From positions 1 through 33,062 of the forward strand of contig CANQTO010000033.1 of the NCBI GenBank assembly GCA_947626785.1: 33,062 nt of DNA. Reading direction: 5' to 3'. The position numbers were made by a program, and so were the translations under genes. The notes beneath the pieces are model-generated. The model made no database searches. It had not been told where the DNA came from and was given only the letters and a program-made list of their open reading frames with translations. Below are positions 9,469 through 23,759 of this stretch, one piece after another (the stretch's first letter is position 1; every line of letters starts with the position of its first letter). The stretch is from an uncultured Oscillospiraceae bacterium. Lineage in GTDB: Bacteria; Bacillota; Clostridia; Oscillospirales; Oscillospiraceae.

Positions 9469-9469
9469 T

Positions 9470-9682
9470 TCAGCTTATATAAAGTCCAAAGGACTTTATA
9501 TAAGCTTCAAGCGCCACTTTTTTTAGAAGAGCGAAGCCCTTCTAAAAAAACTCGCTCCGCTCGGCAAAATTCCGGCAAGCCGGGCATTTTGCTGGCGCGT
9601 TCCAAACACGATGGGGCCTTGCCCCCTCGCGCACCCCCGCTGCTCTCTCACTTTTCATGCACAGCAAAAAATTTGGCTACAG
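9470..9682. repeat. Hairpin-rich dispersed repeat, copy A
   Basis: A non-coding element of about 213 bp that shares most of its length with 23540-23757. It contains: hairpin 1 with perfect 16-bp arms at 9472-9487 and 9491-9506 (loop AAA); hairpin 2 with perfect 12-bp arms at 9518-9529 and 9539-9550, where T7 pairs with A7; hairpin 3 around 9564-9592 (GCAAAAT...ATTTTGC with CCGGC/GCCGG inside); and outer GCGCCA/TGGCGC segments that could close hairpins 2 and 3 into one domain. A conserved tail with CCCCCTCGCGCACCCCCGCT follows. It fills most of the 367-bp gap between the M50 gene and the first binding-protein gene. Confidence 0.85.
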
Positions 9683-9731
9683 ACTCATACTCATTATTCC
9701 TCTATTTTATTTTACCAGAAACGGAAGCAAA

Positions 9732-9761
9732 TTACAAGACCGGGCCGAGAACTTTTATACT
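9732..9761 (+). promoter_or_regulatory. Probable promoter of the first binding-protein gene
   Basis: TTACAA (9732-9737), 18-bp spacer, TATACT (9756-9761) gives a reasonable sigma-A promoter about 75 bp before the start codon. Downstream, a perfect 16-bp palindrome CTGTCATTAATGACAG lies at 9787-9802 in the leader and may be an operator. An alternative ECF-type reading, GCAAC (9767-9771) and GTC (9789-9791), is discussed in the findings. Confidence 0.5.
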
Positions 9762-9835
9762 CCCGCGCAACGGGGGCACGCTTTTTCTGTCATTAATGAC
9801 AGAGGGACATTCAGTCCTGAAAGGAGGTCTTACTG

Positions 9836-11995
9836 TTGAAAAAAATCTTTTTGCTGTTTCTGGCCCTGTGCCTGCTGGGTTCGCTGGGCTTTGCCTGGTT
9901 CCGGGACCGGCAGCCGTCGGAGGCAGTCGGGGAGCAGGCGGCCGCGCCCAAGGTCCTCAGCGCCGCGCAGGAGCAGGGGCCGGAGGCGGTCTACGCCGCC
10001 CAGGTCGTGGACGGCGCGTCGGCTTGGATGGCGGACTGCCTGACCGGCGGCGGGGACAGCGTCTATTTTGCCGGCAGCGACACGGAGGGCTGGAAGCTCT
10101 ACCGGGCGGCCCGGGACGGGAGCGATCCCAGCGTACTTTGCGCCTGGACGGAGGAGAGCATCGAGTCCCTGTGCTTTGCGGACGGGCGGCTCTACGCCCT
10201 GAGCAGCCGCATTGAGGAGTACGAAGACGGGACTGACACAGCCTTCTTCGCGCTGCTGGAGCTGGACGCCGAGGGCCGGGAACTCTGCCGCACGGAGCTG
10301 TGCGGCGAGGGCTGGCCGGAGAACTTCTGGCCTCAGTTCCTCCAGGGCTCCGGCGGAGCGCTGTACATCGCCGGTTCCGGGAGTCTCTGCGCCGTCCGGC
10401 CGGAGGACGCCTCCCGGCCCCTGTTCTGCGTGCCCGTGGAGGGCGGCGCGGAGCTGGCCCTTCTCCCCGACGGACAGCCGGTCCTGGGTACGCCGGGGAC
10501 GGAGGGCGGCTTCATCCTCCAGAGCGTAGGCCCGGACGGGACCCTGGGCGAGCGGCGGGAGCTGGAGGAGAGCATCACCCGGCTCTACAGCGGCGGGGAG
10601 CGTTACAGCCTGTACCTCGCGGACGGCAGCGCCCTCTACGGTTACGACTGGGGCAGCGGAGCGCTGACGCGCCTGCTGACCTGGAGCCAGATGGGCATCA
10701 TCGGCGGCGCGGTGCTGGAGACGGGCGCGGAGGATTTCCTCTGCCTGGGCCGGACCAGGTCCACGGACCCCGGCTGTCTGATGCAGCTGCAAAAGATGGA
10801 CCTGGACCCCTCGGCCACGGGGCCCCTGGTGCTGGCCACGCTGAACATCCAGGACGCATCCATCTATCTGGAGGAGTCCATCGGCGCCTGGAACCGGGCT
10901 CACCCGGACTGCCCGGTGGAGCTGCGGGACTACGGAGGAGGCGGGGACAGCCGGCTGCTGACGGACATCGCCTCCGGCAACGCGCCGGACCTGTTCGACT
11001 TTTCCGCCTACTTCTACGTGCGAAACACGAACCTCTTCTCCGTGGGGCTGCTGGCCCGGCGGGGCCTGCTGGAGGATCTGAATCCCTGGCTGGAGAAGGA
11101 GCCGGAGCTCACGGAAAGCCTGGACAGCTCCCTCCTGTCCGCCTTTGAGATGGACGGAAAGCTGTACGAGGCGGTGATGGGCGTGGCCCCCTACACCTGC
11201 TGCGGCAGCGCATCCGAGCTGGGCCAGGACCCGGCGAACTGGACCTGGGAAGCCCTGGAGGAGAAGCTTGCCCACAATGGCCGGGCCTCCAGCCTCTTGG
11301 TGGACGCCACCTTCAGCGAGGACCTGCTGTCCATGCTGGTGTCCCTCTCCGGGGACAGGCTGGTGGACTGGAGCGGGGGCAGCTGCGCCTTTGACTCGGA
11401 CTATTTCCTCCATCTGCTCCAGGCCGTCAAGGACCGGAGCCGGGTCTGTGACGGCCTGGGGGCCAACGACGCCAACCACACCGCCTGGGACCCGGCGGGT
11501 AACGACGCCCTGCTGGTCCTCTACAGCGACGACTCTCTCTCCATGACCCGTCCCCTCTTCGCCTTTGGGGAGGAGCTGTGCCTGACAGGGCTGCCGGAGA
11601 TCGGGCCCGTGGCGGAGGTCTATCTGGGGGTAGGCGTCTGCTCCCTCTCGGAGCGCAAGGAGCTGTGCTGGGAATTTGTCAAGAGCCTCTATGCCGTCGG
11701 GGGCCACTGCGGCGCGCCGCTGCTCCGGGAAAAGCGGCAGGCCATCCTCGGTGACCGGTTGGAAGAATATGACGAATACCCCATAGAGGGCGTGGAGCGG
11801 GAGCGCTATGCGGCTTTTCTGGAGAAGAACCTGGCCCAGCTGGACCAGATCCATGCCGTGCGGCGCTATGACGCCCAGATCGACCAGATCGTCCGCAGCG
11901 AGGCGGGGGCCTATCTGAACGGCCAGCGCTCCGCCGAAGAGACGGCCCAGGCCATCCAGTCCCGGGTGAGCATCTACATAGCGGAGCAGCAATAA
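9836..11995 (+). CDS. Membrane-anchored propeller plus family 1 extracellular solute-binding protein
   Basis: A 719-residue exported protein. Residues 1-20 are a hydrophobic signal or anchor; Cys12 sits in a poor lipobox (LALC), so lipidation is doubtful. Residues about 45-325 contain repeating short beta motifs (GDSVYFAGSD, DGRLYALSS, GGALYIAGSG, DGSALYGYDW) resembling a beta-propeller. From about 330 to the end the protein resembles ABC sugar-binding proteins (YLEESIGAWNRAHPDCPVEL, DIASGNAPDLFDF, NWTWEALEEKL, and the terminal ETAQAIQSRVSIYIAEQQ). Start is TTG at 9836 with a perfect AAGGAGGT upstream. No permease or ATPase genes lie nearby, so it either serves a remote transporter or acts as a ligand sensor. 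It is a distant paralogue of 13810-16023. Confidence 0.75.
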   Translation: MKKIFLLFLALCLLGSLGFAWFRDRQPSEAVGEQAAAPKVLSAAQEQGPEAVYAAQVVDGASAWMADCLTGGGDSVYFAGSDTEGWKLYRAARDGSDPSVLCAWTEESIESLCFADGRLYALSSRIEEYEDGTDTAFFALLELDAEGRELCRTELCGEGWPENFWPQFLQGSGGALYIAGSGSLCAVRPEDASRPLFCVPVEGGAELALLPDGQPVLGTPGTEGGFILQSVGPDGTLGERRELEESITRLYSGGERYSLYLADGSALYGYDWGSGALTRLLTWSQMGIIGGAVLETGAEDFLCLGRTRSTDPGCLMQLQKMDLDPSATGPLVLATLNIQDASIYLEESIGAWNRAHPDCPVELRDYGGGGDSRLLTDIASGNAPDLFDFSAYFYVRNTNLFSVGLLARRGLLEDLNPWLEKEPELTESLDSSLLSAFEMDGKLYEAVMGVAPYTCCGSASELGQDPANWTWEALEEKLAHNGRASSLLVDATFSEDLLSMLVSLSGDRLVDWSGGSCAFDSDYFLHLLQAVKDRSRVCDGLGANDANHTAWDPAGNDALLVLYSDDSLSMTRPLFAFGEELCLTGLPEIGPVAEVYLGVGVCSLSERKELCWEFVKSLYAVGGHCGAPLLREKRQAILGDRLEEYDEYPIEGVERERYAAFLEKNLAQLDQIHAVRRYDAQIDQIVRSEAGAYLNGQRSAEETAQAIQSRVSIYIAEQQ

Positions 11996-12000
11996 GAAAG

Positions 12001-12028
12001 CACCCGCGCCGGAACCCCGGCGCGGGTG
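12001..12028. terminator. Bidirectional hairpin terminator between convergent genes
   Basis: Perfect 12-bp GC-rich arms CACCCGCGCCGG / CCGGCGCGGGTG with loop AACC lie 5 bp after the stop of the first binding-protein gene and 5 bp before the end of the convergent anti-sigma-like gene. Plus-strand downstream sequence is T-rich (CAGCTTATTTT). Confidence 0.75.
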
Positions 12029-12033
12029 TCAGC

Positions 12034-13059
12034 TTATTTTCCACAGGCCTTTTCAAAGTCAAAGCAATCCGCCAGTGCCTCCGCGTCCGCCCGGCTCAGG
12101 CAGTCCATGGTGGGCCCGACGGTCAGCGTCAAGCTGACGCCCTCCTGCTCGTAGAAGACCAGCAGATGATCCATCTCCGGCGCATTTTCCGTAAACGCGC
12201 CCGGGTCCGGGTAGCGGCTGCGCAGGGCAAAGGACAAGCTGTTGCCGAAGCGGTTGACCGCCTCCCACTGCTCGTACTCCTCCGGGTAGTCCACCAGCAG
12301 ACTGCCCGCCGGCAGGACGCCGGGGAGATTTCGGGTCAGGACGAAAGGCGACGATCCCTCCTCTGTCTCCAGACCGCCCTCCAGCACAAAGCTGCCGTCC
12401 TCATAGATGATCTTGCAGGGGACCGTCTCCTCCCCAGAGGGCGGGAAATAGAAGGGCTCCACCCCCGAGAGGGCGTAGAATTCCTCCTGGCTGGGGCTGA
12501 CAGTCTCCCGGCTGTGCAGCTTCAGGCCGTAGCGGTCTCGGATCTCCAGGATCTTCTCCGCCATCTCCCGGTTGCTGGCCGAATAGATCGTGAACAGAGC
12601 CTCCAGCTCCGGATCACCCGCATACCAATCCCCGTCCTCGTCTATCCAATCATAGTAGCCCAGGCCCCGGTCCAGACACTCCTGGCCCCGGCGCTCTGTG
12701 TACGACCAGTAATAGTCCCACATCTCCTGGCTGGCTCTGGCTTCCGGGGAATCGGCAAGGCCGTATTCTGCCAGATAGTATTTCTGCTCCGCCGTCTCGG
12801 TGGGCGGCGCGCCGATCTCCCCCACCACTACGCTGGGCGTCAGCTTCTGGCTCAGCTCGATCCGCCAGACCGCGTAGGCCGTGCCCACGAACAGGGCAGA
12901 GAGCACCGCCGCCAGCAGCGCCGTCCGCAAAATTCTCCGCCGGCGGAGGACCGGGGCGGGCCGGGCGTCCAGCAGGCCAAGGGCCTTCTCCGCATCCAGC
13001 AGATCCGCCTCCGCCGCGGCGTTCATCGCCCGCAGCAGCGTCCAGGCTCCCTTCTTCAT
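12034..13059 (-). CDS. Membrane-anchored anti-sigma-like protein
   Basis: A 341-residue bitopic protein. Residues 1-42 are a cytoplasmic helical head rich in Ala/Leu, then Arg-rich RRRR, then one transmembrane helix at about 43-65, then a large acidic, Tyr/Trp-rich outside domain to the end. The start overlaps the ECF sigma gene stop by 4 bp (ATGA), the classic sigma/anti-sigma pairing, which is the main support for the call. I do not recognise a named family for the outer domain, nor a zinc-binding HxxxCxxC anti-sigma motif. Inference: the head binds the sigma factor and the outer domain senses an envelope signal. Confidence 0.65.
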   Translation of the reverse strand: MKKGAWTLLRAMNAAAEADLLDAEKALGLLDARPAPVLRRRRILRTALLAAVLSALFVGTAYAVWRIELSQKLTPSVVVGEIGAPPTETAEQKYYLAEYGLADSPEARASQEMWDYYWSYTERRGQECLDRGLGYYDWIDEDGDWYAGDPELEALFTIYSASNREMAEKILEIRDRYGLKLHSRETVSPSQEEFYALSGVEPFYFPPSGEETVPCKIIYEDGSFVLEGGLETEEGSSPFVLTRNLPGVLPAGSLLVDYPEEYEQWEAVNRFGNSLSFALRSRYPDPGAFTENAPEMDHLLVFYEQEGVSLTLTVGPTMDCLSRADAEALADCFDFEKACGK

Positions 13060-13607
13060 GCGCTCACCTCCAGAGCTGCCAGCAGCTTTTGCCGCGTGCG
13101 AAAGAGCATGCTCTTGACCTTGCTCTGGCTGAAGCCGGAGCGGTCCGCCAACTCCTCGATGGAGAGCAGGTAGTAATAGCGCCCCAGGAACACCCGGCGC
13201 TGGGCCTTCGGCAGCTGGGAGATAAAGCGCCGCAGCTGTTCCTCCAGCTCCTTTGCCTCCAGTTCCTCCTCCAGGTCAAAGGCGGAGGGCACGCAGTCGC
13301 CCAACTCCTCTAAAGCCAGGGGCAGCTCTCCCCCGCCCCGCCGCCGGCTGTTCTGCCGGGCGATGCGGTTCAGGGCCAGGTTGCGGGTGATCCGCCCCAG
13401 AAAGGCCGAGAGCCGGGCCGGGCGCTTGTCCGGCATGGAGCCCCAGGCCCCCATCCAGGTGTCGTCCACACACTCCTCTGTGTCCTCCGCATCGTGCAGG
13501 ATGTTGTAGGCGATCGTCCGGCAATAGGGGCCGTATTTCCGGTCTGTCTCCTCAATGGCCCGCTCCGAGCGCTGCCAGTACAGATCCACGATCCCGGCGT
13601 CGTCCAT
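13056..13607 (-). CDS. ECF-type RNA polymerase sigma factor
   Basis: A 183-residue sigma-70 family protein. Region 2 runs about 25-90 with YNILHDAEDTEECVDDTWMGAW (promoter melting and core binding) followed by FLGRITRNLALNRIARQ. An acidic linker (about 95-122) leads to region 4 at about 125-178, with the helix-turn-helix YLLSIEELADRSGFSQSKVKSMLFRTRQKL. Length fits the group IV (ECF) class. ATG at 13607 is preceded by GGGAGGGA. It is co-transcribed and translationally coupled with the anti-sigma-like gene, and transcribed divergently from the second binding-protein gene. A candidate autoregulatory promoter is listed separately. Confidence 0.92.
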   Translation of the reverse strand: MDDAGIVDLYWQRSERAIEETDRKYGPYCRTIAYNILHDAEDTEECVDDTWMGAWGSMPDKRPARLSAFLGRITRNLALNRIARQNSRRRGGGELPLALEELGDCVPSAFDLEEELEAKELEEQLRRFISQLPKAQRRVFLGRYYYLLSIEELADRSGFSQSKVKSMLFRTRQKLLAALEVSA

Positions 13608-13639
13608 CGCTGTCCCTCCCTATTTACAGTTCTACTTCT

Positions 13640-13667
13640 ATAGACAAAATTTTTCCGCTCAGGTTGC
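13640..13667 (-). promoter_or_regulatory. Candidate ECF-type autoregulatory promoter
   Basis: On the minus strand GCAACCT (13667-13661), 15-bp spacer, GTCTAT (13645-13640). ECF sigma promoters commonly have an -AAC- containing -35 and a -GTC- containing -10 at this spacing, and such sigma genes are usually autoregulated. The leader to ATG 13607 would be about 25 nt. No better sigma-A promoter was seen in the same place. Confidence 0.5.
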
Positions 13668-13712
13668 GCCAAAAAACAAAAAAAGTTCAAGAAAATACTT
13701 TTCTGTATAAAT

Positions 13713-13731
13713 CTTAAGTATTCTTAAGAAT
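13713..13731. promoter_or_regulatory. CTTAAG palindromes in the divergent intergenic region
   Basis: A perfect 12-bp palindrome ATTCTTAAGAAT at 13720-13731 and a second CTTAAG at 13713-13718 lie 10 bp apart, one helical turn. They sit about 15 bp upstream of the -35 of the second binding-protein promoter, where an activator or repressor could bind. No regulator is assigned. Confidence 0.4.
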
Positions 13732-13743
13732 CAACTCGTTCTG

Positions 13744-13772
13744 TTGAAAAGCGGAGAAAAATATTATATACT
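13744..13772 (+). promoter_or_regulatory. Sigma-A promoter of the second binding-protein gene
   Basis: TTGAAA (13744-13749), 17-bp spacer, TATACT (13767-13772), with a leader of about 30 nt to the ATG at 13810 and the ribosome binding site GGAGGA at 13801-13806. Confidence 0.75.
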
Positions 13773-13809
13773 TGCTGCAACCTTTTTCAAAGCACAAATC
13801 GGAGGATCT

Positions 13810-16023
13810 ATGAAACGAAAGAGTAAATGTTTGCTGCTTGTCACGCTTTGCCTCGCTCTTGCGCTTGCCCTCTCCGCCTGCCGCCAGGCGCCGGAGGCCG
13901 TAACACCGGCGGGAACGCAGGAGGGGCCCGGCCTGGCCGTCCCAACGGAGAGCAGCCCCGCCCTCCCGACAGGGGACCCGACTTTGCTGATAGACAGCGC
14001 CCTGGACAGCGGGGCGGCCATGACGGTCCGGGTGGAGGACCGGGAGGAGGCCCAGCCCTTTGCGGAGGACGCCTCCATTATCAGCCTGGCCCGTCAGGGC
14101 TCCTCTCTTCTCTTTCTCGCGGAGCGGAATGGGGCCGCTTTCCTGGGCCTTTCCGGCTATACCGTTCTGGAGGACGGGCGGCCTTCTGTCGATCCGGCCA
14201 GGGAGTTTGCTATAGCGCCCCTGCCCTTTGAGGGCGAGGCGATCACCTACGGCCTCACCGCCGGCGGGGACGGGAACTTTTATCTGCTGGCGGGGAATAA
14301 CGACGGCGGCCGCTCCACGCAGCTGGCCATCCAGCGCTACAGCCCTACTGGAGAGTATATGGACTGTATGAGCATCCCCGACTGGAAGCTTCTCACCGTC
14401 CGGGCCTTCAGCGTGGGCAGCAGCGGGGAGATCGTCCTGGGAGAGGACTACACCGTCTGCGTATACCGCTGGCAGGAGGGGCTCTTGAACCAGGAGGAGC
14501 TGGGGCAGGCGGTCTACAGCTCGTCCCTGTGCGGCCAGGGGCTGGTCGTCTCCACCTACTCGGAGCGGGACTGGGCCGCCCCCTATCTGCTGGTGGACAG
14601 CGGCACCGGGAAGCTCAGTCCCCTGCCCCTCTCCGACCAGGACCCGGCCGGCGACCGCGCGAACAATATCCGCCGGAAAAGCGGCAGTCTTCTGCCCTGC
14701 CAGAGCTATGCCGGGGAATATCTCATCAACCAGGGCGACTGCATCTCTCTCATCGACTTTGAGACGGACACGCTGGAGCCCTTGGTGGAGTGGAATGTAG
14801 CGGGGACTTCCCCGGACGCCTGCGGACCCGCCTGCCGCCTGGGGGAAAACTCCTTTGCCTGCCTGGCGGACGGGAAGCTGATCCTGGCCTGGTCCAATAC
14901 CGTTGAAAAGCGGGAGGGCGGCATCGTCCGCGTGGGCATGATCGACATGCGGGGGACCCTGGCCCAAAAAGTCCGGCGGGCAAACACGGCCGGCTGCCCC
15001 TATACCTACGAGATCACCCAGTTTGCCTGGGGCGAGGGGGACAAGCTCCGGGCGGAGCTGGCCGCGGGCAGCTTTGACCTGGTGCTCTTTTACGGAGAGT
15101 TAAATACCAGCTCCAACAGCTTCGAGGACCTGTACCCGTACATCGACGCGGACCCGGACCTGTCCAGGGCCTCCTTCCTGCCGAATCTTTTGGAGAGCAG
15201 TTCTGTCCACGGGGAACTCCATCAGCTCTGGAACAGTGTGTATGTCAACACCATGACCGCGCCGGAGAGCGCCGCCGGGGACGGGCGGGGGCTGACGGTC
15301 GCCGACTGTGAGCGGCTGGTGGAGGAGACTCCGGGCCTCCAGTCCGTGTTTGACAACAAATATTCCGACAGCGAGGGGCTGAAGCAGGACACGCTGCAAA
15401 ATATCGCCTACCTTGCCATGACCGCGTTCGTGGATAAAGAGAGCGCCACGTGCAGCTTTGACAGCCAGGAGTTCAAGGACCTTCTGGCCCTGGCCGGCCG
15501 CATAAAAGCTAATCCCAACAGCGACGGGCACGACTGGCTCCTGAGCAGCGCCACCGTCTCTTCCGCGGAGAGCGTCGCGTTTTTGGAGGAAAAGGGAGGT
15601 CCCCTGGCCTTTGTGGGCTATCCGGACGGCGGTGACGGCATCCACTACTATTCCCTGCCCAATGAGTTTGAAAGCTGCATGACCATGGCCATCCCCGCCA
15701 ACAGCAAGAGCAAGGTGGGCGCCTGGACCTTTATCAAGACCATGCTGTCCCACAGCAACCAGAGCAGCCTCTCCTACGGGATGCCGGTGATCTACGATGT
15801 TGTAAAGGAGAAGACGGAGCGGACCGTCAACGAGCAGGTGGCCGCCAAATTCTACGACTTGCTTGAGCGGACGAAATATGCCGAGCAGGCCACCGATGAG
15901 ACTCTGCTCGACCTGATCATGGACAGCAGCCAGGCCTACCTCGCCGGGACAAAGACTCTGGACGAGACGGCAAAACTGATCCAGTCCAAGGTCAGCCTGT
16001 ATGTCTCTGAACAATACGGATAA
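13810..16023 (+). CDS. Lipoprotein: propeller plus extracellular solute-binding domain
   Basis: A 737-residue lipoprotein. The N-terminus MKRKSKCLLLVTLCLALALALSAC has an excellent lipobox L-S-A-C with lipidated Cys24. Residues about 60-365 carry propeller-like beta repeats (SIISLARQGSSLLFLAERNG, GGDGNFYLLAGNNDG, EIVLGEDYTVCVYRW). From about 370 on it resembles family 1 ABC solute-binding proteins: VRVGMIDMRG, a lone hydrophobic LVLFYGEL segment, VGAWTFIKTML, and the terminal ETAKLIQSKVSLYVSEQYG. The end closely resembles that of the protein at 9836-11995, supporting an old duplication. Start ATG at 13810 is fixed by GGAGGA and the signal peptide. No transport permease is adjacent; the divergent ECF sigma gene suggests envelope regulation. 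Confidence 0.78.
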   Translation: MKRKSKCLLLVTLCLALALALSACRQAPEAVTPAGTQEGPGLAVPTESSPALPTGDPTLLIDSALDSGAAMTVRVEDREEAQPFAEDASIISLARQGSSLLFLAERNGAAFLGLSGYTVLEDGRPSVDPAREFAIAPLPFEGEAITYGLTAGGDGNFYLLAGNNDGGRSTQLAIQRYSPTGEYMDCMSIPDWKLLTVRAFSVGSSGEIVLGEDYTVCVYRWQEGLLNQEELGQAVYSSSLCGQGLVVSTYSERDWAAPYLLVDSGTGKLSPLPLSDQDPAGDRANNIRRKSGSLLPCQSYAGEYLINQGDCISLIDFETDTLEPLVEWNVAGTSPDACGPACRLGENSFACLADGKLILAWSNTVEKREGGIVRVGMIDMRGTLAQKVRRANTAGCPYTYEITQFAWGEGDKLRAELAAGSFDLVLFYGELNTSSNSFEDLYPYIDADPDLSRASFLPNLLESSSVHGELHQLWNSVYVNTMTAPESAAGDGRGLTVADCERLVEETPGLQSVFDNKYSDSEGLKQDTLQNIAYLAMTAFVDKESATCSFDSQEFKDLLALAGRIKANPNSDGHDWLLSSATVSSAESVAFLEEKGGPLAFVGYPDGGDGIHYYSLPNEFESCMTMAIPANSKSKVGAWTFIKTMLSHSNQSSLSYGMPVIYDVVKEKTERTVNEQVAAKFYDLLERTKYAEQATDETLLDLIMDSSQAYLAGTKTLDETAKLIQSKVSLYVSEQYG

Positions 16024-16031
16024 GGCGTACA

Positions 16032-16080
16032 AAACAGAGGCTGTAGCAAAGCGACAAAAGCTCTGCTACAGCCTCTGTTT
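16032..16080. terminator. Long-stem terminator between convergent genes
   Basis: Perfect 17-bp arms at 16032-16048 and 16064-16080 (AAACAGAGGCTGTAGCA and its complement) with a 15-nt loop. The outer A/T ends supply a U-run in both directions. It serves the second binding-protein gene (plus) and engB (minus), whose stop codon touches the stem. Confidence 0.85.
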
Positions 16081-16670
16081 CACAACAGTTTTAAGATCTC
16101 AGCCATCAGCGCGTCCCGGCCCTGGCCGGTCTCGGCGGAGAAGGGGATGATCCTGACCTCCTCCCCCAGCTCCAGGCTTTCCCGGATGCAGCGGAGATTT
16201 GGCTCGATCTCGCTCTTTTTCAGCTTGTCCAGCTTGTTGGCCACCACCACCAGGCGGCATCCGCTGGCCTTGAACCACTGGGCCATGGTGACGTCGTCCG
16301 CCGTGGGCTTATGGCGGCTGTCCACCAGCATCACGCCCAGGCCGATCCGCTCCGGGTCCTCAAAGAAGCGCTCCATGAGCTGGGCCCAGCGGTCCCGCTC
16401 GCTCTGAGAGACTTTGGCGTAGCCGTAGCCGGGCAGGTCCACAAAATAGAGCTTTCCGTCGATGAGGAAGTAGTTCACATGGGCGGTCTTCCCCGGGGAG
16501 GCGCTGACCCGGGCGAAATTTTTCCGGTTCAGCAGCCGGTTGAGCACCGAGGACTTGCCCACGTTGGACTTGCCCGAGAAGACCACGCTGGGCAGAGGGG
16601 ACCGGATGAACTGGCTGGGGGCGGCGGCGGAGCGTACAAACTCCGCCTTATTTACATTCAAGGACGCCAT
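16080..16670 (-). CDS. engB: Ribosome biogenesis GTPase EngB/YsxC
   Basis: A 196-residue TRAFAC-class GTPase needed for late assembly of the 50S subunit. G1 is GKSNVGKSS at 33-41, G3 is DLPGYGYAK from residue 78, G4 is NKLD at 145-148, and a G5-like FSAETGQG lies near the end. Length matches the family. It follows lon by 9 bp, the same lon-ysxC order found in Bacillus and many Firmicutes. Confidence 0.96.
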   Translation of the reverse strand: MASLNVNKAEFVRSAAAPSQFIRSPLPSVVFSGKSNVGKSSVLNRLLNRKNFARVSASPGKTAHVNYFLIDGKLYFVDLPGYGYAKVSQSERDRWAQLMERFFEDPERIGLGVMLVDSRHKPTADDVTMAQWFKASGCRLVVVANKLDKLKKSEIEPNLRCIRESLELGEEVRIIPFSAETGQGRDALMAEILKLL

Positions 16671-16679
16671 ATGACCTCA

Positions 16680-19085
16680 CTACTGCCGGACCGTGTGCCG
16701 CTCCGCGCCCAACAGGCTCTGGGCCTGGGGCAGCAGGGCCGGCTCCGGCTTCTCCTCCCGGACCAGCACCAGGTCCAGGATCTTGTCCACATGGTCCGTG
16801 GGCACGAAGCTCAGCCCCTGGCGGACATCCTGGTCGATCTCGGCCAGGTCCGGCTCGTTCTCGGCGGGGATGATCACCGTCTTGACCCCGGCCCGGTAGG
16901 CGGCCATGGTCTTTTCCCGCAGGCCGCCGATGGGCAGCACCCGGCCCCGTAGGGTGATCTCGCCGGTCATGGCCACATCGCCCCGGACCGGCGCCCCGGT
17001 CAGGGCGGAGATCAGCGCCACGCACATGGTGATACCGGCGGAGGGCCCGTCCTTGGGGACCGCCCCCTCCGGGAAGTGGATGTGGATATCCCGGTTCTTA
17101 TAAAACTCCGGGTCGATGCCCAGGGTCCGGGCCCGGCTGCGGATATAGCTCAGGGCCGCCTGGGCGGACTCCTTCATCACGTCCCCCAGATTTCCGGTCA
17201 GGTTCAGCTTGCCGCTGCCCTCGACCACCGCCACCTCCACATCCAGCGTCTCGCCGCCAACAGCGGTGTAGGCCAAGCCACGGACCAGGCCCACCTCGTC
17301 CCGGACCCGCCGCTGCTCCGGCTTGAAGCGGGCGGGGCCAAGCAGGGGCTCCAGCTTCCCGGGCTTGACGCTCAGGCTCTTGTATTTGCCCTCGGCGATG
17401 CCTCCGGCGGCCTTGCGGCACACGGCGGCCAGCTCCCGCTCCAAAAGGCGGACGCCGGACTCCCGGGTGTAGCCCCGGATCATCTCCCGGATGGCCTCAT
17501 CGTCCACCCGGAGCTGATTGGCCTTCAGGCCGTGCTTTTTGCGCTGCTTGGGCAGCAGATGGTCCTTGGCGATGTGCAGCTTCTCCTCGTCGGTATAGCT
17601 GCTCAGCTCTATGATCTCCATCCGGTCCAGCAGGGGCCGGGGGATGGTGTCTTTCGTGTTGGCGGTGGTGATAAAGAAGACCTCGGACAGGTCAAAGGGG
17701 ATCTCCAGGAAGTTGTCCCTAAAGCTGCTGTTCTGCTCCCCGTCCAGGGCCTCCAGCAGCGCCGCCGAGGGGTCGCCCCGGTAGTCGGAGCCCAGCTTGT
17801 CGATCTCGTCCAGCACCATCAGAGGGTTGCAGCTGCCCGCCTGGATGATGCCGCTGATGAGCCGGCCGGGCATGGAGCCGATGTAGGTCTTCCGGTGGCC
17901 CCGGATCTCCGCCTCGTCGTGGACGCCGCCCAGAGACAGGCGCACCAGCTTCCGGTTGGTGGCCCGGGCGATGCTCATGGCGATGCTGGTCTTGCCGGTG
18001 CCCGGAGGGCCTACCAGGCACAGCAGGCCGCCCTTGATCTCAGGCGTCAGTTGCTTGACGGCCAGGTACTCCAGGATGCGCTCCTTGACCTTCTCCAGGC
18101 CGTAGTGGTCCTCGTCCAGCATTTTGCGGGCCTTGGGGATATCGATGGTCTCCTTGGTCTTCTTGCTCCAGGGCAGCTCCAGGCACACGTCCAGATAGCC
18201 ACGCAGAACGGCGGCCTCCGAGGAGCCGAAGGGCTGCTTGGAGAGCCTGCCCAGTTCCTTGAGGAGCTTGTCCCGCACCTCGGCGCTGACGGGCAGGGCC
18301 TCGATCTTCCGGCGGTATTCCTCGGTATCGTCGCTCAGGCCGTCCTCGCCCAGCTCCGCCTGGATGACCTTCATCTCCTCCCGGAGATAGTACTCCCGCT
18401 GGTTCCGGTTCATCTGCTCCTGGGCGGCGTCGTTGATCTCCTTCTCCACGGCCATGATGTCCAGCTCCCGCTTCAGGTAGCCCGCCAGGAGCATCAGGCG
18501 CTTGCCCGGCTGGAGGGTCTCCAGCAGCTTCTGCTTCTCCTCCGGCTCCAGCCGAAGGTGCTGGGCTATGTAGTTGGCCACATAGGAGGGGTCGGGATTT
18601 GCCAGGATGTTCAAGATCTGCTCCGGGAGCATGTCCGGCGCCTGGCGCAGATAGTCCTCAAACAGGGACAGGCAGCTGCGCAGCAGCCCCTGCATCCGCA
18701 CGGCGCTGATCCGCTCCGGCCGGTCCGGCAGGGGGCGGATCTCCGTGCTGTAGCCCTTGGGGTCAGGCCAGATGTTCAGGGCTTCCGCCCGGTACAGGCC
18801 CTCCACCATGATCCGGCAGACGTTCCCCCGGGGCTGCCGCAGCTGCTGCTTGACCCGGCAGACGGTGCCCACATGGTAGATCCCGCCGGCCTCGGGCAGC
18901 TCCTCGGTCAGTTCCTTCTGGCCTGCCAGAAAAATCATCTGATTGGTCTTCATCGCCAGATCCACGGCGGCGGTGGAGGCCGGGCGCTCCACGTCAAAGG
19001 TCAGGAGCATCCCGGGGAACACCGTCAGGCCCCGCAGCGCCAGCAACGGCAGCAGGACCGTCTCCTTCTCGTTATTTTCCGGCAT
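16680..19085 (-). CDS. lon: ATP-dependent Lon protease
   Basis: An 801-residue LonA. The N-terminal substrate-binding LON domain covers about 1-200 ([16 protein letters not shown]), followed by a helical linker, the AAA+ module with Walker [10 protein letters not shown] and Walker [11 protein letters not shown], and the C-terminal S16 peptidase with catalytic dyad S682 (DGPSAGITM) and K725 ([10 protein letters not shown]). It degrades damaged proteins and selected regulators in the cytoplasm. ATG 19085 is chosen because GGAGAG lies 6 nt upstream; the frame opens nine codons earlier, overlapping clpX. All key residues are present. Confidence 0.97.
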
Positions 19086-19108
19086 GATTCTCTCTCCATC
19101 CGAAGCGG

Positions 19109-20359
19109 TCAACCGTTGATGTGGCTGACCTCAGGCTGCGTCCCGTTCCGTACGCACTCCGCCGTGACCGTCACCTTATTGGCGGTGGGGTCGGAAGGGA
19201 CCGTGTACATGATATCTGTCATGACGCCCTCCATGACGCTCCGGAGCCCGCGGGCCCCGATCTTCATCTGGATGGCTTTATCGGCAATAGCCTCCAGGGC
19301 CTCCGGCTCGAACTCCAGCTCCACCCCGTCGTAGGAGAGCAGGGCCTTGTACTGCCGGGCCATGGAGTTTTTGGGCTCTGTGAGGATGCGCACCAAGTCC
19401 TCCCGCTTGAGGGTGTCCAGCGTGGCCACCACAGGCAGCCTGCCTACCAGCTCCGGGATGATACCGAACTTGAGCAGATCGTGCTGCTGCACCTGGGAAA
19501 AGATCTCCCCCAGGTCCCGCTCGGAGCTGCTGGTGATGTCCGCGCCGAAGCCCATGGCCTTCCGGTTGATGCGCTTTTCGATGATCTTGTCCAGCCCGTC
19601 AAAGGCGCCGCCGCAGATAAAGAGGATGTTGGTGGTGTCCACGTGGATGAACTCCTGGTGGGGGTGCTTGCGGCCGCCCTGGGGCGGGACATTGGCGATG
19701 GTGCCCTCCAGGAGCTTGAGCAGCGCCTGCTGCACGCCCTCGCCGGACACATCCCGGGTGATGGAGGTGTTCTCGCTCTTGCGGGCGATCTTGTCGATCT
19801 CGTCGATGTAGATGATGCCCCGCTGGGCCCGCTCCACATCGAAATCCGCCGCCTGGAGGAGCTTGAGGATCACGTTCTCCACGTCCTCGCCCACGTAGCC
19901 CGCCTCGGTGAGGGTGGTGGCGTCGGCGATGGCAAAGGGCACATCCAGCATTTTCGCCATGGTCTGTGCGAAGAGGGTCTTGCCGCTGCCGGTGGGGCCG
20001 ATGAGCAGGATGTTGCTCTTTTGCAGCTCCACCTCGTCCTTGCCCCCGTGGAGGATGCGCTTATAGTGGTTGTACACCGCCACGGACAGCACGACCTTGG
20101 CCCGCTCCTGGCCCACCACGTAGTCGTCCAGGTTGGCCTTGATCTGCATGGGCTTGGGCAGCTTCTCCAGGACCAGGGGCAGGCCGTCATAGCCCTCCAC
20201 CTGCTGGGGCACGGGGCCGTCGTCGATGATGCTCATGCACATGCGGATGCAGTCGTCGCAGATGTAGCTGCCGTTTCCGGCAATGAGCCGGTTGACCAGG
20301 GCCTGAGGCTTCCCGCAGAAGGAACACCTGATGCTTCGTCTGTCTTCATTTCTCGCCAT
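19109..20359 (-). CDS. clpX: ClpX, ATP-binding unfoldase subunit of ClpXP
   Basis: A 416-residue AAA+ unfoldase that recognises tagged proteins and threads them into ClpP. The N-terminal zinc-binding domain has C12/C15 and C34/C37. Walker A GPTGSGKT is at 121-128, the pore loop GYVG at 154-157, Walker B IIYIDEID at 182-189 and sensor 2 is in GARGLRS near residue 372. The ClpP-docking loop reads MGFGAD where most ClpX have an IGFG-type tripeptide; this is close to normal. The gene follows clpP after about 80 bp that contain two hairpins, and precedes lon by 23 bp. Confidence 0.97.
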
Positions 20360-20393
20360 ATTTTACTCCGTTCCGGCGATGTTCGCCAGGCAA

Positions 20394-20432
20394 TTCTGCC
20401 TTAAAAGGCAGGGGGAACGAAACGTTCCCCCT
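20394..20432 (-). terminator. Tandem hairpins between clpP and clpX
   Basis: Just after the clpP stop, perfect 10-bp arms AGGGGGAACG / CGTTCCCCCT (20410-20419, 20423-20432) form one hairpin; immediately next is CTGCC/GGCAG with a TTAAAA loop (about 20396-20411), sharing bases with it. The U-run is poor, so partial termination, attenuation or mRNA 3'-end protection that sets the clpP to clpX ratio is more likely than full stop. Function is inference. Confidence 0.5.
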
Positions 20433-20440
20433 TTAGTCCG

Positions 20441-21022
20441 TCAGCGTTTGTAGATGACCTGGTCGATCAGGCCGTACTCCTTGGCCTCCTCGGCGGTCAT
20501 GAAATTGTCCCGCTCGCAGTCGGCCGCCACCGTCTCATAGGGCTTGCCGGTGTTGTCGGCCAGGATGTGGGTCAGGCGCTGTTTGATGATCTCCAGGCGC
20601 TTGAGGTGGATGGCCATATCGGTGATCTGGCCCTGGGTGCCGGCGGAGGGCTGGTGGATCATGATCTCCGCGTTGGGCAGGGCGATACGCTTGCCCTTGG
20701 CGCCGCTGGACAGGAGGAAGGCGCCCATGCTGGCCGCCATGCCGATGCAGATGGTGGACACGTCGCACTTGATATACTGCATGGTGTCGTAGATGGCCAT
20801 GCCCGCCGTGACGCTGCCGCCGGGGCTGTTGATATAGAACTGTATGTCTTTATCCGGGTCCTGGGCCTCCAGGTACAGCAGCTGGGCCACCACCAGGCTC
20901 GCGGTGGTGTCGTTCACTTCCTCCGAGAGCATGACGATCCGGTCGTTCAGCAGCCGGGAAAAGATATCGTAGGAGCGCTCGCCGCGGCTGGTCTGCTCCA
21001 CTACATAGGGTACTAAACTCAT
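20441..21022 (-). CDS. clpP: ATP-dependent Clp protease proteolytic subunit
   Basis: A 193-residue serine protease that forms the double-heptamer chamber used by ClpX. The catalytic triad is complete: S98 (GMAASMGA), H123 (MIHQPSAG) and D172. [12 protein letters not shown] (63-74) forms the substrate strand and oxyanion region. The N-terminus [20 protein letters not shown] is typical, with a short propeptide-like start. GGAAAGGAG lies upstream of the ATG. Order tig-clpP-clpX-lon is as in E. coli and many clostridia. Confidence 0.97.
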
Positions 21023-21045
21023 TGTATGAAACTCTCCTTTCCAAT

Positions 21046-21073
21046 ATTGTACAAAGCTGGTTCAGCGATCCAA
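21046..21073 (-). promoter_or_regulatory. Possible internal promoter for clpP
   Basis: In the 77-bp gap between tig and clpP, TTGGAT (21073-21068), 16-bp spacer, TACAAT (21051-21046) read toward clpP. No CtsR-like direct heptad repeats were noticed next to it. Confidence 0.5.
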
Positions 21074-21099
21074 GAGAGCTTATCCTTATCCCCTAAACT

Positions 21100-22416
21100 T
21101 TATTCAGCCTTCTCCTCCGGAGCCTCCGCCGTCTCAGAGACCACGGCGCTGTCCAGAATAAGCTGGGTAGCCTTTTCTTTCTTCTGCTCTTCCTTGATGA
21201 AGTCGATGCCGTAGTAGCTGCGGATGTCGTCCGGAGAGGCGTTGATGCCCTCGGCCACCTTCTTCAGGTACTCCTCGGCTTCCTCGTCGCTGACCTGGAT
21301 GTCCTCGGCCTTGACCACGGCGTCCAGCAGCAGCTCGGTCTTCACCTGGAACTCGGCGCCCGGGCGGATGGTCTGAGCCATGGACTCCTCGTCGATGCCC
21401 AGCATCTTGATCAGTTCCGCGGTGCTGATGCTCCGGTCGGTGACGCCGAAGTTGGCGGCGTAGTTGCGCACCAGCTCCTCCACCTTGTCCTCGATCATCA
21501 CCTCGGGGATCTCGGCGGTCATATTATCCGCAGCCTGGCGCATGATGGCGGAGCGGAAGGCGGCGTCGGCCTGGTCGTCATAGCGTTTCTGAAGGGTGGC
21601 GCGCAGGTCGGCCTTGTACTCGTCCAGAGTGTCGAACTCGGACACGTCCTTGGCAAACTCGTCGTCCAGCTCGGGCAGCTCGGGATAGGTCAGGCCGTTG
21701 AGCTTGACCTTGAAGACCACGGCCTTGCCGGCCAGGTTCTCCACGTAGTTTTCCGGGAAGGTGATGTCCAGGTCCTTCTCCTCGCCGATCTGCATACCCA
21801 CGATCTGCTCCTCAAAGCCGGGCACAAAGGAGTTGGAGCCCAGCTCCAGGGAATAGCCCTCGGCCTTACCGCCGTCGAAGCGCTCCCCGTCCAGGTAGCC
21901 GTCAAAGTCGATATTGGCGGTGTCGCCCATCTGGGCCGGCCTGTCATCCACGTCGATCATCCGGGCGTTGCGGCGGCGGACATTGTCGATCTCGTGCTGG
22001 AGCTCGTCCTCAGACAGCTCGGTATGCTCCTTGGCGGCCTCCAGGCCCTTGTACTGGCCCAGGGTGACCTCGGGGTACAGGGACACGGAGAAGGTATAGA
22101 CTACGGTCCGCTCCTCGGTGACGTTCACGTCCGCGATAGCGGGGGCGCCCACCACCTGGAGCTTGCTCTCGCTGACGCCGAACTCATAGGCCTTGGGGGC
22201 CAGCTCGTCCATAGCGTCCTGGTAGAAGACCTCCGCGCCGTACATGCCCTCCACGACAGCCCGGGGGGCCTTGCCTTTACGGAAGCCGGGGATATATATA
22301 TCGCGCTTGTTTTTCAGGTACGCGCCGTTGACGGCGGCCTCAAATTCCGCCGCGTCGGTCTCCACCTGGAAAAAGGCGGTGTTCTTTTCTTTCTTCTCGA
22401 CGTTTTTAACGATCAT
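21100..22416 (-). CDS. tig: Trigger factor (ribosome-associated chaperone)
   Basis: A 438-residue trigger factor with peptidyl-prolyl isomerase activity that binds nascent chains at the ribosome exit. The N-terminal ribosome-binding domain (about 1-115) contains the signature GFRKGKAPR near residue 45. The FKBP-like PPIase domain is at about 150-240 (GDTANIDFDGYLDG, FVPGFEEQIVGM), and the C-terminal arm domain follows to the acidic end. ATG 22416 is chosen from GAGGAGG and the conserved MIVKNVEKKEKN start; a longer reading frame upstream runs through the promoter. It leads the tig-clpP-clpX-lon-engB cluster. Confidence 0.96.
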   Translation of the reverse strand: MIVKNVEKKEKNTAFFQVETDAAEFEAAVNGAYLKNKRDIYIPGFRKGKAPRAVVEGMYGAEVFYQDAMDELAPKAYEFGVSESKLQVVGAPAIADVNVTEERTVVYTFSVSLYPEVTLGQYKGLEAAKEHTELSEDELQHEIDNVRRRNARMIDVDDRPAQMGDTANIDFDGYLDGERFDGGKAEGYSLELGSNSFVPGFEEQIVGMQIGEEKDLDITFPENYVENLAGKAVVFKVKLNGLTYPELPELDDEFAKDVSEFDTLDEYKADLRATLQKRYDDQADAAFRSAIMRQAADNMTAEIPEVMIEDKVEELVRNYAANFGVTDRSISTAELIKMLGIDEESMAQTIRPGAEFQVKTELLLDAVVKAEDIQVSDEEAEEYLKKVAEGINASPDDIRSYYGIDFIKEEQKKEKATQLILDSAVVSETAEAPEEKAE

Positions 22417-22435
22417 ATTTGATTTCCTCCTCTGT

Positions 22436-22485
22436 CTGTGTTGCACACAGATAAATATAATAGCAGAGATTCCTCATAAAATCAA
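22436..22485 (-). promoter_or_regulatory. Promoter of tig with a leader palindrome
   Basis: TTGATT (22485-22480), 17-bp spacer, TATTAT (22462-22457) read toward tig. CTGTGT/ACACAG (22436-22450) makes a small inverted repeat right at the expected transcription start and could be an operator or 5' hairpin. Confidence 0.7.
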
Positions 22486-22515
22486 GGAAAATTCGTGAAT
22501 ACTGCGCCCTTTCGC

Positions 22516-22544
22516 AAAAAAACTGCCCTTTTCCGGTCAAAGGC
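22516..22544 (-). terminator. Terminator of the metallophosphoesterase gene
   Basis: On the minus strand GCCTTT, a 7-nt loop, AAAGGGC (22544-22525; imperfect arm), then AG.. and a run of seven T (22522-22516). The stem overlaps the stop codon (22539-22537). Confidence 0.6.
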
Positions 22545-23244
22545 CCTCTTCCGCCCCGAAAGGCAGCCGCAGGGGCGAAAAATTGACATGGTCGGCGGAC
22601 ACCAGGCGGTATTCCGTGCCGTCCCGCCAGCCGTTGAAGGCGGCGGCGCAGCCCTTGCCGTGGATGTGCCCGTAGCAGCACAGACGGACCCGGTGCTCCT
22701 TCAGTAGGGCCAGGATCTCAGGGCACTCGTAGTGCAGATACAGCGGCGGATAGTGGAGGAAGACCAGCTTCTCCCGGTCCCCCGCCGCCTTGAGCGAGGC
22801 CTCCAGGCGCATGACCTCCCGGCGCATGATCTTGCCGTCGTGCTCGCCGCCCTTCTCCTCCTCGTAAAACCAGCCCCGGGTGCCGCAGAGGGCATAGTCC
22901 CCGTAGGGAAAGAAGTTGTTGTGGAGGATGTCGATGCTGTCGATGCCGTTTTCCTGAAAAAAGCGCTTGGCCTTGGAGGCCGTGCTCCACCAGTAGTCGT
23001 GGTTGCCCTTGAGGAGGATCTTCCGGCCAGGCAGGGAGTGGACAAAGAGGAAGTCCTCTCTCGCGCCCTCCATGTCCATAGCCCAGCTCAGGTCCCCGCA
23101 GAGCACGCAGACGTCCTCCGGGCCCAGAGCAGAAAAGCCCTGCTTCAGTTTTTCCGTGTGGCCCCGCCACTTCTCCCCGAAGACATCCATGGGCTTGGAG
23201 GCCGACAGGGACAGGTGCAGGTCGCCGATCGCGTACAGTGCCAT
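22537..23244 (-). CDS. Metallophosphoesterase (calcineurin-like)
   Basis: A 235-residue predicted phosphohydrolase with all binuclear metal motifs: D8-L-H10 (GDLHLS), GD at 50-51 (CGDLSW), GNHD at 80-83 followed by YWW, H164 (LHYPP) and GHIHG (H193, H195). Members of this subgroup are conserved in clostridia but their substrate is not established; phosphodiester or nucleotide substrates are possible. ATG 23244 has AAAGGAACC upstream. It is transcribed divergently from the DUF1540 gene; a weak minus-strand TTAGTT-17-TATTAT is visible between them. No signal peptide, so cytoplasmic. Confidence 0.88.
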   Translation of the reverse strand: MALYAIGDLHLSLSASKPMDVFGEKWRGHTEKLKQGFSALGPEDVCVLCGDLSWAMDMEGAREDFLFVHSLPGRKILLKGNHDYWWSTASKAKRFFQENGIDSIDILHNNFFPYGDYALCGTRGWFYEEEKGGEHDGKIMRREVMRLEASLKAAGDREKLVFLHYPPLYLHYECPEILALLKEHRVRLCCYGHIHGKGCAAAFNGWRDGTEYRLVSADHVNFSPLRLPFGAEEGL

Positions 23245-23338
23245 AGCGGTTCCTTTGCTGCAACGGGTATAATACGCCGTGTTTTTTCAAAAACTAAGAA
23301 CGCCCAACAGGGCATTATTCGATACAGGAGGCAACATC

Positions 23339-23515
23339 ATGAGCGACAAGAAGACCCGTGAGCCCAACCCCGGCGTGGGCTGCGACGTGACCGGCTGCAA
23401 GTACAACACCATCGACTGCCGCTGCAGCGCCCAGCACATCACCGTGCAGAACGAGAAGGCCGCCACCAAGGGCGAGACCTACTGCTCCACCTTCTGCCCC
23501 CGGGGCACCTGTTGA
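23339..23515 (+). CDS. Small Cys-rich DUF1540 protein
   Basis: A 58-residue protein whose Cys pattern (CDVTGCKYNTIDCRC...TYCSTFC) is the DUF1540 signature, consistent with binding of a metal such as zinc or with disulfides. The ATG at 23339 follows ACAGGAGGCAAC; an upstream in-frame TTG lacks support. DUF1540 proteins are common in spore-forming Firmicutes; their role is unknown. Downstream a GC hairpin CCGGGC/GCCCGG (23520-23537) and the first hairpin of repeat copy B may act as terminator. Confidence 0.85.
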   Translation: MSDKKTREPNPGVGCDVTGCKYNTIDCRCSAQHITVQNEKAATKGETYCSTFCPRGTC

Positions 23516-23539
23516 ATATCCGGGCGCTTTTGCCCGGAG

Positions 23540-23757
23540 TCAGCTTGTATACAAAGTCCTTTGGACTTTGTATACAAGCTTCAGCGCCACTTTTTTTAGT
23601 AGGACAAAGTCCTTCTAAAAAAACTCGCTACGCTCGGCAAAAGCCCGGCAAGCCGGGCGTTTTGCTGGCGCCATCCAAACGCGAGGTGGGCCTTACCCCC
23701 TCGCGCACCCCCGCTGCTCACTTGTTTTTCATGCACAGCAAGGGGTTTGTCTACAGT
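23540..23757. repeat. Hairpin-rich dispersed repeat, copy B
   Basis: The partner of 9470-9682, in the same orientation. Hairpin 1 has perfect 18-bp arms (23542-23559, 23563-23580; loop TTT). Hairpin 2 has 15-bp arms with one mismatch (23591-23605, 23609-23623; loop AAA). Hairpin 3 spans 23637-23665 (GCAAAA..GCCCGGC AA GCCGGGC..TTTTGC). GCGCCA/TGGCGC segments again flank hairpins 2 and 3, and CGCGAGG/CCTCGCG (about 23680-23705) adds a fourth. The conserved tail ends near CATGCACAGCA and CTACAG. It lies between the DUF1540 and yraN genes, which are convergent. Confidence 0.85.
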
Positions 23758-23759
23758 CT

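Follow-up and report, generated by a model that had tools for sequence, protein, structure and literature searches.

Hairpin-Rich Repeats in an Oscillospiraceae Genome as Probable IS1182-Type MITEs, with Duplication of Whole Target Hairpins

Two Copies of a Dispersed Multi-Hairpin Repeat

The window (the whole stretch of DNA analysed, 33,062 nucleotides from an uncultured Oscillospiraceae bacterium) contains two look-alike blocks, which raise the question of what kind of element they are, what keeps their hairpins paired, and how they came to their present sites. An earlier note on this DNA had described near-duplicates at 9470-9682 and 23540-23757; these were borne out as two copies (A and B) of one dispersed repeat of about 215 bp, the elements proper occupying 9471-9686 and 23541-23760. 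Hairpin 1 was likewise found as described, its perfect arms spanning 16 bp around an AAA loop in copy A and 18 bp around a TTT loop in copy B. For hairpin 2, in which a changed but still paired stem had been claimed, one pair is indeed altered on both sides between the copies, but the stem is imperfect in both (A-C in A, T-T in B). The features are as follows.

9471..9686, forward strand: copy A, probable MITE, hairpin 1 end first, delimited by repeat search and far terminal inverted repeat (TIR)
9472..9506, forward strand: copy A hairpin 1, arms 9472-9487 and 9491-9506; the outer arm is the near TIR
9518..9550, forward strand: copy A hairpin 2, with one mismatch
9563..9593, forward strand: copy A hairpin 3, approximate limits
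9608..9631, forward strand: copy A hairpin 4, approximate limits, running into the conserved tail
9672..9686, reverse strand: copy A far TIR, GAGTCTGTAGCCAAA, decayed, 2 mismatches
23519..23538, no strand assigned: hairpin flanking copy B on the left, with a stem of 8 bp
23541..23760, forward strand: copy B, probable MITE, delimited by repeat search, TIRs at 23541 and 23746
23542..23580, forward strand: copy B hairpin 1, arms 23542-23559 and 23563-23580
23591..23623, forward strand: copy B hairpin 2, with one mismatch
23636..23667, forward strand: copy B hairpin 3, approximate limits
23680..23705, forward strand: copy B hairpin 4, approximate limits
23746..23760, reverse strand: copy B far TIR, CAGACTGTAGACAAA, exact, 0 mismatches, the same end as IS1182 copy L184
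23761..23785, no strand assigned: hairpin flanking copy B on the right; its 11-bp stem leads into a T-rich tail

A search for further copies placed the repeat at 24 distinct sites in its own 2.75-Mb genome (30 match rows minus 6 that were second pieces or self-inverted matches; one site is a 31-bp piece), and matches were present in 31 of the 61 genomes of the genus, its own included. The copies align as a multi-hairpin core. The MITEs measure 132-335 bp, leaving aside three with doubtful ends (L007, L016, and L150), and carry no transposase gene; as they were selected by recognisable ends, decayed copies are under-counted. Relatives have vacant sites for both window copies. The site of copy A, which lies between divergent genes with a hairpin on neither side, is empty and contiguous in G068 and G018, while copy B stands between two similar hairpins where four relatives (G031, G089, G023, and G077) have an empty site with a single hairpin. 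The two hairpins flanking copy B are unlike in their loops and have stems of unequal length, and their common origin is thus inferred.

Terminal Repeats Shared with IS1182-Family Elements

The MITE ends, CAG[AC][CT]TGTAGACAAA or CAG..TGTCAAAAAA, match the TIRs that flank transposase genes of the IS1182 family in sister genomes, with CAGACTGTAGACAAAG ends at the genes L184, L167, and L168 and CAGCTTGTCAAAAAAC ends at L157 and L183. All four transposase proteins scanned match NF033551 (IS1182), two above the cut-off (E = 1.1e-113 for L157) and two half-genes below it, and PF13751, PF05598, and PF01609 were found between them. Near-end and far-end TIRs tend to be of one type (12 A/A, 6 B/B, 2 mixed, and 7 of 27 unassigned; Fisher p = 0.0007, related copies being counted as independent). 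The own genome (G000) gave no match to an IS1182-family transposase, a PF01609 search of 10 genomes returned five rows in three genomes and none in the own genome, and the transposase with matching type A ends occurs in sister genomes, where contig ends truncate its copies; mobilisation in trans is accordingly inferred. IS1182 elements of the GGGGCTGTGAAAAAA type were considered as a partner and dropped because their ends differ, mostly with one end visible in the copies inspected. A 3.7-kb pair of inverted ends in G033:C24, taken for an autonomous element, turned out to be two MITEs with host genes between them.

These observations suggest that the MITEs are probably moved by IS1182-type transposases. 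The full reading, which we hold with high confidence, sees the blocks as non-autonomous transposons of the IS1182 type (MITEs) for which the transposase would act in trans, joining the element to the feet of a cruciform, with copying of the whole target hairpin. Of the three options raised earlier, a MITE-like element mobilised in trans agrees with the copies, shared TIRs, target duplications, and empty sites, and a structured RNA or a processed 3' end is not needed. Intergenic palindromes in many copies would also be expected of a REP/BIME-like or RAYT (Y1 transposase) family, but the element has TIRs and target duplications, and its ends match those of IS1182 elements. REP and IS200/IS605 elements are not known to possess terminal inverted repeats or to duplicate their target. 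Such an affiliation is extremely improbable.

Maintenance of Pairing

The hairpins fold strongly (z = -6.2 and -5.1 for copy A on the two strands), and their compensatory changes are genuine. Among 27 aligned copies, two-sided change was counted in 39 cells over 11 pairs, against 9.2 in shuffles, none of 500 of which reached as high, and at most 10 cells in slid controls; the number of further pair types in the same alignment did not exceed that of shuffles. The strong fold and clear covariation could point to selection on base pairing in a transcript, in which case the repeat would be a functional structured RNA or an element of the 3'-UTR that has spread by copying. However, hairpin 1 consists of the near-end TIR and an inverted copy of that TIR, and two-sided cells far outnumber one-sided ones, with 39 against 9 over the whole structure and 27 against 3 in helix 2 (9 unpaired). 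Of the 439 hairpin 1 pairs scored in the 27 copies, 428 are Watson-Crick, 3 G-T, and 8 mismatched, six copies with a one-base indel in one arm being counted over the inner 10-11 bp only. Selection on RNA normally leaves G-U intermediates, and their scarcity thus favours upkeep of the palindromes at the DNA level. In addition, no Rfam family reached the gathering score in the window, and the empty sites of both window copies also speak against a structured RNA, which we judge improbable. The earlier proposal that pairing rather than sequence is kept stands in part: pairing is largely kept and the changes go beyond chance, but hairpin 1 amounts to no more than a TIR and its inverted copy. In the MITE reading, the internal hairpins, the hairpin 1 foldback included, would be maintained as DNA palindromes, probably through template-switch correction and because the two ends have to match. 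Caution is due where intergenic repeats covary strongly, since transposon palindromes, rather than functional RNA, may be the source.

Duplication of Whole Hairpins at the Target Site

Both the MITEs and the full IS1182 copies are located at terminator-like hairpins, mostly beside them, and share the same kind of target duplication. The duplicated hairpins fall outside the two blocks of the earlier note, which could see neither them nor the IS1182 connection. The IS set comprised 53 copies from 60 loci, with ends chosen blind to repeats; seven loci were dropped for weak ends or a missing flank, and L220 was left out as the same site as L183. An adjacent direct repeat was found in 25 of 48 MITEs (17 exact and 8 with up to 4 mismatches; 20-43 bp) and in 39 of 53 IS copies (35 exact; 19-64 bp). 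These duplications are hairpins in 62 of 64 cases (25/25 MITE and 37/39 IS), judged by terminal arms of at least 5 bp with up to 3 nt trimmed, a test passed by 121 of 5000 shuffled versions for the MITEs and 105 of 4200 for an earlier IS set. That first set held 33 copies, and the shuffle, stem-foot, and cross-pair controls still rest on it. Duplication length follows hairpin length and not a fixed stagger, and the stem stops at the duplication edge in 30 of 46 repeats (MITEs and earlier IS set). In the complete genome of Chakrabartyella piscis, nine IS copies that are 95.1-100% identical lie beside different hairpins, eight of them with an adjacent duplication. By their look the duplicated hairpins are terminator-like and may be intrinsic terminators; a T- or A-tract of at least 5 in 9 lies beside 47 of the 64, and beside 1314 of 3200 shuffled flanks.

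By the test used, the adjacent repeat was absent in 23 of 48 MITEs, including the three with a doubtful end, and in 14 of 53 IS copies. Some of these have matching stems with unlike loops or a single missing base (L080 and L240), and others stand between two unrelated hairpins (e.g. L202, L234, L245, L257, and L258). The latter would be expected if the flanking hairpins were not target duplications but had arisen by recombination or served convergent genes as separate terminators. However, a hairpin stands at both ends of 37 of 46 MITEs and 25 of 30 IS copies of the earlier set, and the resemblance between left and right flanks exceeds the 99% point of cross-pairs in 33 of 46 and 22 of 30, respectively. 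The similarity of an element's own pair exceeds all 2070 (MITE) or 870 (IS) cross-pairs in 31 of 46 and 22 of 30, and the 17 MITE and 35 IS exact duplications include the loop and reach 64 bp, which makes independent origins very improbable.

A Proposed Cruciform Model for Insertion

In the proposed mechanism, the IS1182 transposase, supplied in trans, would cut each strand once, with the two cuts on opposite flanks of the palindrome, and join the two ends of the element to both 5' feet of the extruded cruciform; the entire hairpin would then be copied by repair synthesis. Joining at the feet followed by repair copying would let the target hairpin set the duplication length, and since insertion would copy the hairpin without destroying it, termination probably survives. 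Alternatively, insertion could take place on single-stranded DNA (the lagging strand or a transcription bubble) instead of a double-stranded cruciform, with the rest of the explanation unchanged. Polymerase pauses at intrinsic terminators and exposes the non-template strand, and the coincidence of stem end and duplication edge is also consistent with this route. However, a full target duplication needs both strands to be cut, which a cruciform offers directly, and we consider the single-stranded route rather unlikely.

On balance, we lean towards a broader reading in which the fold of the target acts as a ruler: a DDE transposase of the IS1182 clade would cut cruciform feet so that the duplication equals one hairpin (19-64 bp), IS elements and MITEs would colonise terminators across Clostridia without damaging them, and repeated insertion could build CRISPR-like hairpin-element-hairpin arrays. 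The foldback arms of the TIR would be kept alike by DNA palindrome correction, and both ends would switch transposase specificity together. Duplication length is normally fixed for a given transposase, whereas here it follows the fold of the target, which offers a testable mechanism for the long and variable IS1182 duplications. Hairpin duplications could then provide a natural record of cruciform formation in vivo, and terminators could serve as safe harbours for a transposon. Duplications of 0-60 bp are reportedly listed for the IS1182 family in the ISfinder tables.

Comparison with Known Elements

Structure-based targeting of hairpins by an IS1182-family transposase is shared with IS1272/TnSha1 of Staphylococcus, which recognises its targets by their structure rather than their sequence; these are hairpins and in many cases transcription terminators (PMC5678879, PMC4923244). 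IS1272 removes or replaces the stem-loop without target duplication, whereas here the whole stem-loop is duplicated; in the Fig. 13 legend of Wan et al., such duplication figures only as a hypothetical side pathway (pathway b). Siguier et al., as cited in both papers, noted that some IS1182 members target palindromes. The partner transposases match the NF033551 model of this family. ISPse1 of Paracoccus, also a member, has a listed duplication of 4 bp (PMC3281130), in contrast to the whole hairpin found here. Within the open-licence literature, IS1272 is reported to target hairpins; duplication of a whole hairpin by IS1182 elements or their MITEs, a rule linking duplication length to hairpin length, and hairpin-rich IS1182 MITEs were not found there, which does not establish their absence from print.

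Other bacterial MITEs, such as RUP, BOX, SPRITE, and QMITE, are described in the relevant passages of a review as short, intergenic, strongly folding, present in many copies, and thought to be mobilised in trans (PMC10969869), features that the present element resembles in size class, position, folding, copy number, and presumed mobilisation. IS1182 is absent from the main text of that review, and its passages on other MITEs name no whole-hairpin target duplication. SPRITE, as described there, is itself terminator-like, whereas the element described here lands beside terminator-like hairpins.

Tandem hairpin-element-hairpin arrays were observed at L047 and L054, and such whole-unit copying resembles CRISPR repeat duplication. 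Cas1-Cas2 makes staggered cuts at both sides of the CRISPR repeat of about 30 bp and so duplicates the whole repeat. The analogy is one of geometry only, as here a DDE transposase would insert a whole transposon at a target defined by its structure.

The Two Window Copies and Related Elements

The two near-duplicate hairpin blocks proposed in an earlier note are present where it placed them, and the full elements extend over 9471-9686 (copy A) and 23541-23760 (copy B). Hairpin 1 has perfect arms of 16 bp in copy A and 18 bp in copy B, as had been described, and hairpin 2 is a paired stem in both copies, with one mismatch in each. No Rfam family scored above its gathering threshold in the window. 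At both ends of each copy stands an inverted repeat akin to CAG[AC][CT]TGTAGACAAA.

Terminal inverted repeats (TIRs) of the window copies compared with CAG[AC][CT]TGTAGACAAA
9672-9686, copy A far end, two mismatches
23541, copy B near end, one mismatch
23746-23760, copy B far end, exact match

Copy A lies between divergent genes, has no flanking hairpin, and occupies a site that is contiguous in two relatives (G018 and G068). It adjoins the start (window 9460-9471) of a Peptidase_M50 gene (8770-9468, minus strand), where ATG GGG GTG of both relatives reads TTG GGG GTG in the window, so that the ATG has been lost. The neighbours of copy B are a DUF1540 gene and a convergent UPF0102 gene, and a hairpin flanks it on each side (stems of 8 and 11 bp); the two hairpins share CCGGGCG and GCCCGGAG and differ in the loops; all four aligned relatives carry a single hairpin at this site.

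Further copies, which the earlier note had proposed to look for, were found in the window's own genome (G000; 2.75 Mb in 98 contigs, the window being one entire contig), where copy A as a query returned 30 rows corresponding to 24 places, one of them (contig C53) a 31-bp piece only, and in related genomes, with matches in 31 of the 61 genus genomes, G000 included. In own-genome copies read with their flanks, the far end repeats, in inverted orientation, the outer arm of hairpin 1. The element, a MITE, is therefore bounded by TIRs. A search of G000 with the TIR only (at most one mismatch) gave 41 places, 20 forward and 21 reverse, against 0 and 1 in the control. Among them is a second MITE family, likewise rich in hairpins, with the left TIR in common and a different core (GAGGCAGCTTTGCCGCCTC .. 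CTCGCGCCGACCAAACGGGGC).

Own-genome members of the second MITE family
L066, hairpin duplication exact
L080, duplication off by one base
L076
L079
L153
L154

In three copies (L021, L022, and L023), the match to the element is broken between hairpin 3 and the tail by 118-222 extra bases, themselves hairpin-rich, pieces of which reappear in other elements such as L075. Tandem arrays of the form hairpin-element-hairpin-element-hairpin occur at L047 and L054 (genomes G040 and G050) and are similar to CRISPR arrays in geometry.

Association with IS1182-Family Transposases

In sister genomes, the same ends flank IS1182-family transposase genes, with CAGACTGTAGACAAAG at L184, L167, and L168, and CAGCTTGTCAAAAAAC at L157 and L183, of which L183 is a complete IS with a transposase reading spread over two frames. 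The four transposases scanned match NF033551 (IS1182), two above the cut-off and two, which are half-genes, below it, as well as Pfam transposase domains. A search of G000 found no IS1182-family transposase gene, leaving its MITEs without an assembled partner.

Duplication of Whole Target Hairpins

Many copies adjoin terminator-like hairpins, and their flanks showed the same hairpin, loop included, on both sides.

Examples of elements with the hairpin on both sides
L009, 27 bp
L010, 27 bp
L019, 41 bp
L124, 38 bp
L183, 32 bp

Of the MITEs, 48 could be recognised at both ends (at least 26 of 30 end positions; three copies with a doubtful end were retained and two duplicate entries removed). An adjacent direct repeat of 20-43 bp was found in 25 of these, 17 of the repeats being exact and eight having at most four mismatches. 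For the IS copies, a species-representative collection was scanned with the L157 transposase, and 60 loci with flanks were taken (59 of the best 80 of 185 confirmed relatives, plus L183), 53 of which had both ends and flanks; ends were chosen solely by likeness to the end motifs. Direct repeats of 19-64 bp adjoined 39 of these 53 copies (35 of the repeats exact), compared with 21/33 in the first IS set. The longest, a 64-bp palindrome, flanks the IS at L193 (isolate 'Lapin-011' MAG) on both sides. Hairpin-duplicating IS1182 members also occur in records named outside Oscillospiraceae, namely Desulfosporosinus hippei (L251, 24 bp) and an Acetobacterium wieringae MAG (L226, 20 bp).

The duplicated repeats are themselves hairpins: terminal arms of at least 5 bp were present in 25/25 MITE and 37/39 IS repeats, the exceptions being L201, with its hairpin set off from the repeat ends, and L222, with 4-bp arms, while shuffled repeats reached 5 bp in 121/5000 (MITE) and 105/4200 (first IS set) cases. 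In 30 of 46 repeats (MITE and first IS set), the stem stops at the edge of the duplication, which implies cuts at the stem foot. Another control, which needs no exact repeats, compared each copy's own pair of 45-nt flanks with cross-pairs between copies. Own pairs exceeded the 99% point of the cross-pairs in 33/46 MITEs and 22/30 IS copies, and every cross-pair in 31/46 and 22/30, respectively. A hairpin stood at both ends in 37/46 MITEs and 25/30 IS copies (shuffled left flanks, 26/230 and 26/150). The complete Chakrabartyella piscis genome carries one IS in nine copies (95.1-100% identity over 1484 bp), which lie beside different hairpins, with an adjacent duplication of 20-35 bp in eight and one off by one base in the ninth (L240). 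The hairpin therefore derives from the target, and its size fixes the length of the duplication. A T- or A-tract adjoins 47/64 duplicated hairpins versus 1314/3200 shuffled flanks, and these hairpins are likely terminators, a less firm assignment.

Some copies do not fit this pattern, among them copy A, without flanking hairpins, and copy B, whose two hairpins differ in the loops. At L006, L039, L119, and L302 the stems match and the loops differ, which may reflect duplications drifting under selection for termination; two unrelated hairpins flank the element at, for example, L202, L234, L245, L257, and L258, which could be recombinants or insertions between two terminators.

Proposed Insertion Mechanism

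The geometry of insertion is evident from these flanks. A DDE transposase, presumably acting in trans on the MITEs, would attach the element by its two ends to the 5' feet of an extruded cruciform, leaving a hairpin-length gap on each side, and gap repair would then duplicate the whole hairpin, so that termination would probably survive the insertion.

Hairpin targeting by IS1182 members is already known. In Wan et al. 2017 (PMC5678879), pathway b of the model is the same whole-hairpin duplication scheme, whereas for IS1272 itself the hairpin is described there as replaced without duplication; the same hairpin deletion was reported in 2016 for IS1272 and TnSha1 (PMC4923244). The elements described here, which duplicate the hairpin, look like pathway b in nature. 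Searches of an open-licence library returned no account of whole-hairpin duplication with a target-set length, common to IS and multi-hairpin MITEs. ISfinder tables give duplications of 0-60 bp for IS1182, which would fit a length set by the target. These observations are of clear interest for workers on transposition and bacterial repeats.

A GGGGCTGTGAAAAAAGTCCC-ended IS1182 type was seen at many contig ends of G000 (L005, L013, L028, L103, L108, and others). At L108 a ribosomal L7/L12 gene precedes it, with no hairpin between, and at L013 its end occupies the place expected for hairpin 1, resembling an IS1272-like replacement.

Compensatory Changes and Probable Palindrome Upkeep

Covariation was assessed in 27 aligned copies, 18 of the 24 own-genome places and nine from relatives, omitting fragments, copies with inserts, L012, and reversed loci; 97.5% of cells pair. 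The compensatory changes claimed earlier exceed chance, with 11 pairs changed on both sides in 39 cells (shuffled mean 9.2, 0/500 as high; slid structures at most 10), and the measure of further pair types was not above shuffles in the same 27 copies (438/500 as high). Hairpin 1 was scored copy by copy because MAFFT shifts it between subfamilies, giving 428 Watson-Crick, three G-T, and eight mismatched pairs over 14 distinct arm sequences; six copies with a one-base indel in one arm (L015, L019, L302, L309, L322, and L033) were scored over the inner 10-11 bp. Type A-like copies had 16 two-sided and eight one-sided changes. The proposal that pairing rather than sequence is kept thus holds in large part.

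Two-sided and one-sided cells, which count copies and not events, stood at 39:9 overall and 27:3 in helix 2, with nine unpaired, and G-U intermediates are fewer than selection on RNA would predict. Hairpin 1 loops occur in both orientations (AAA/TTT). At L012 (~1400-1510), a perfect 29-bp foldback formed from the neighbouring tRNA-like 3' end and terminator stands in place of hairpin 1; it was identified by eye and is likely a template-switch product. Arm upkeep in general resembles palindrome correction by template switching, acting on DNA. The types of the near and far ends are coupled (12 A/A, six B/B, two mixed, and seven unassigned; Fisher p 0.0007, copies taken as unrelated), which would be expected if both ends had to be recognised by a single transposase.
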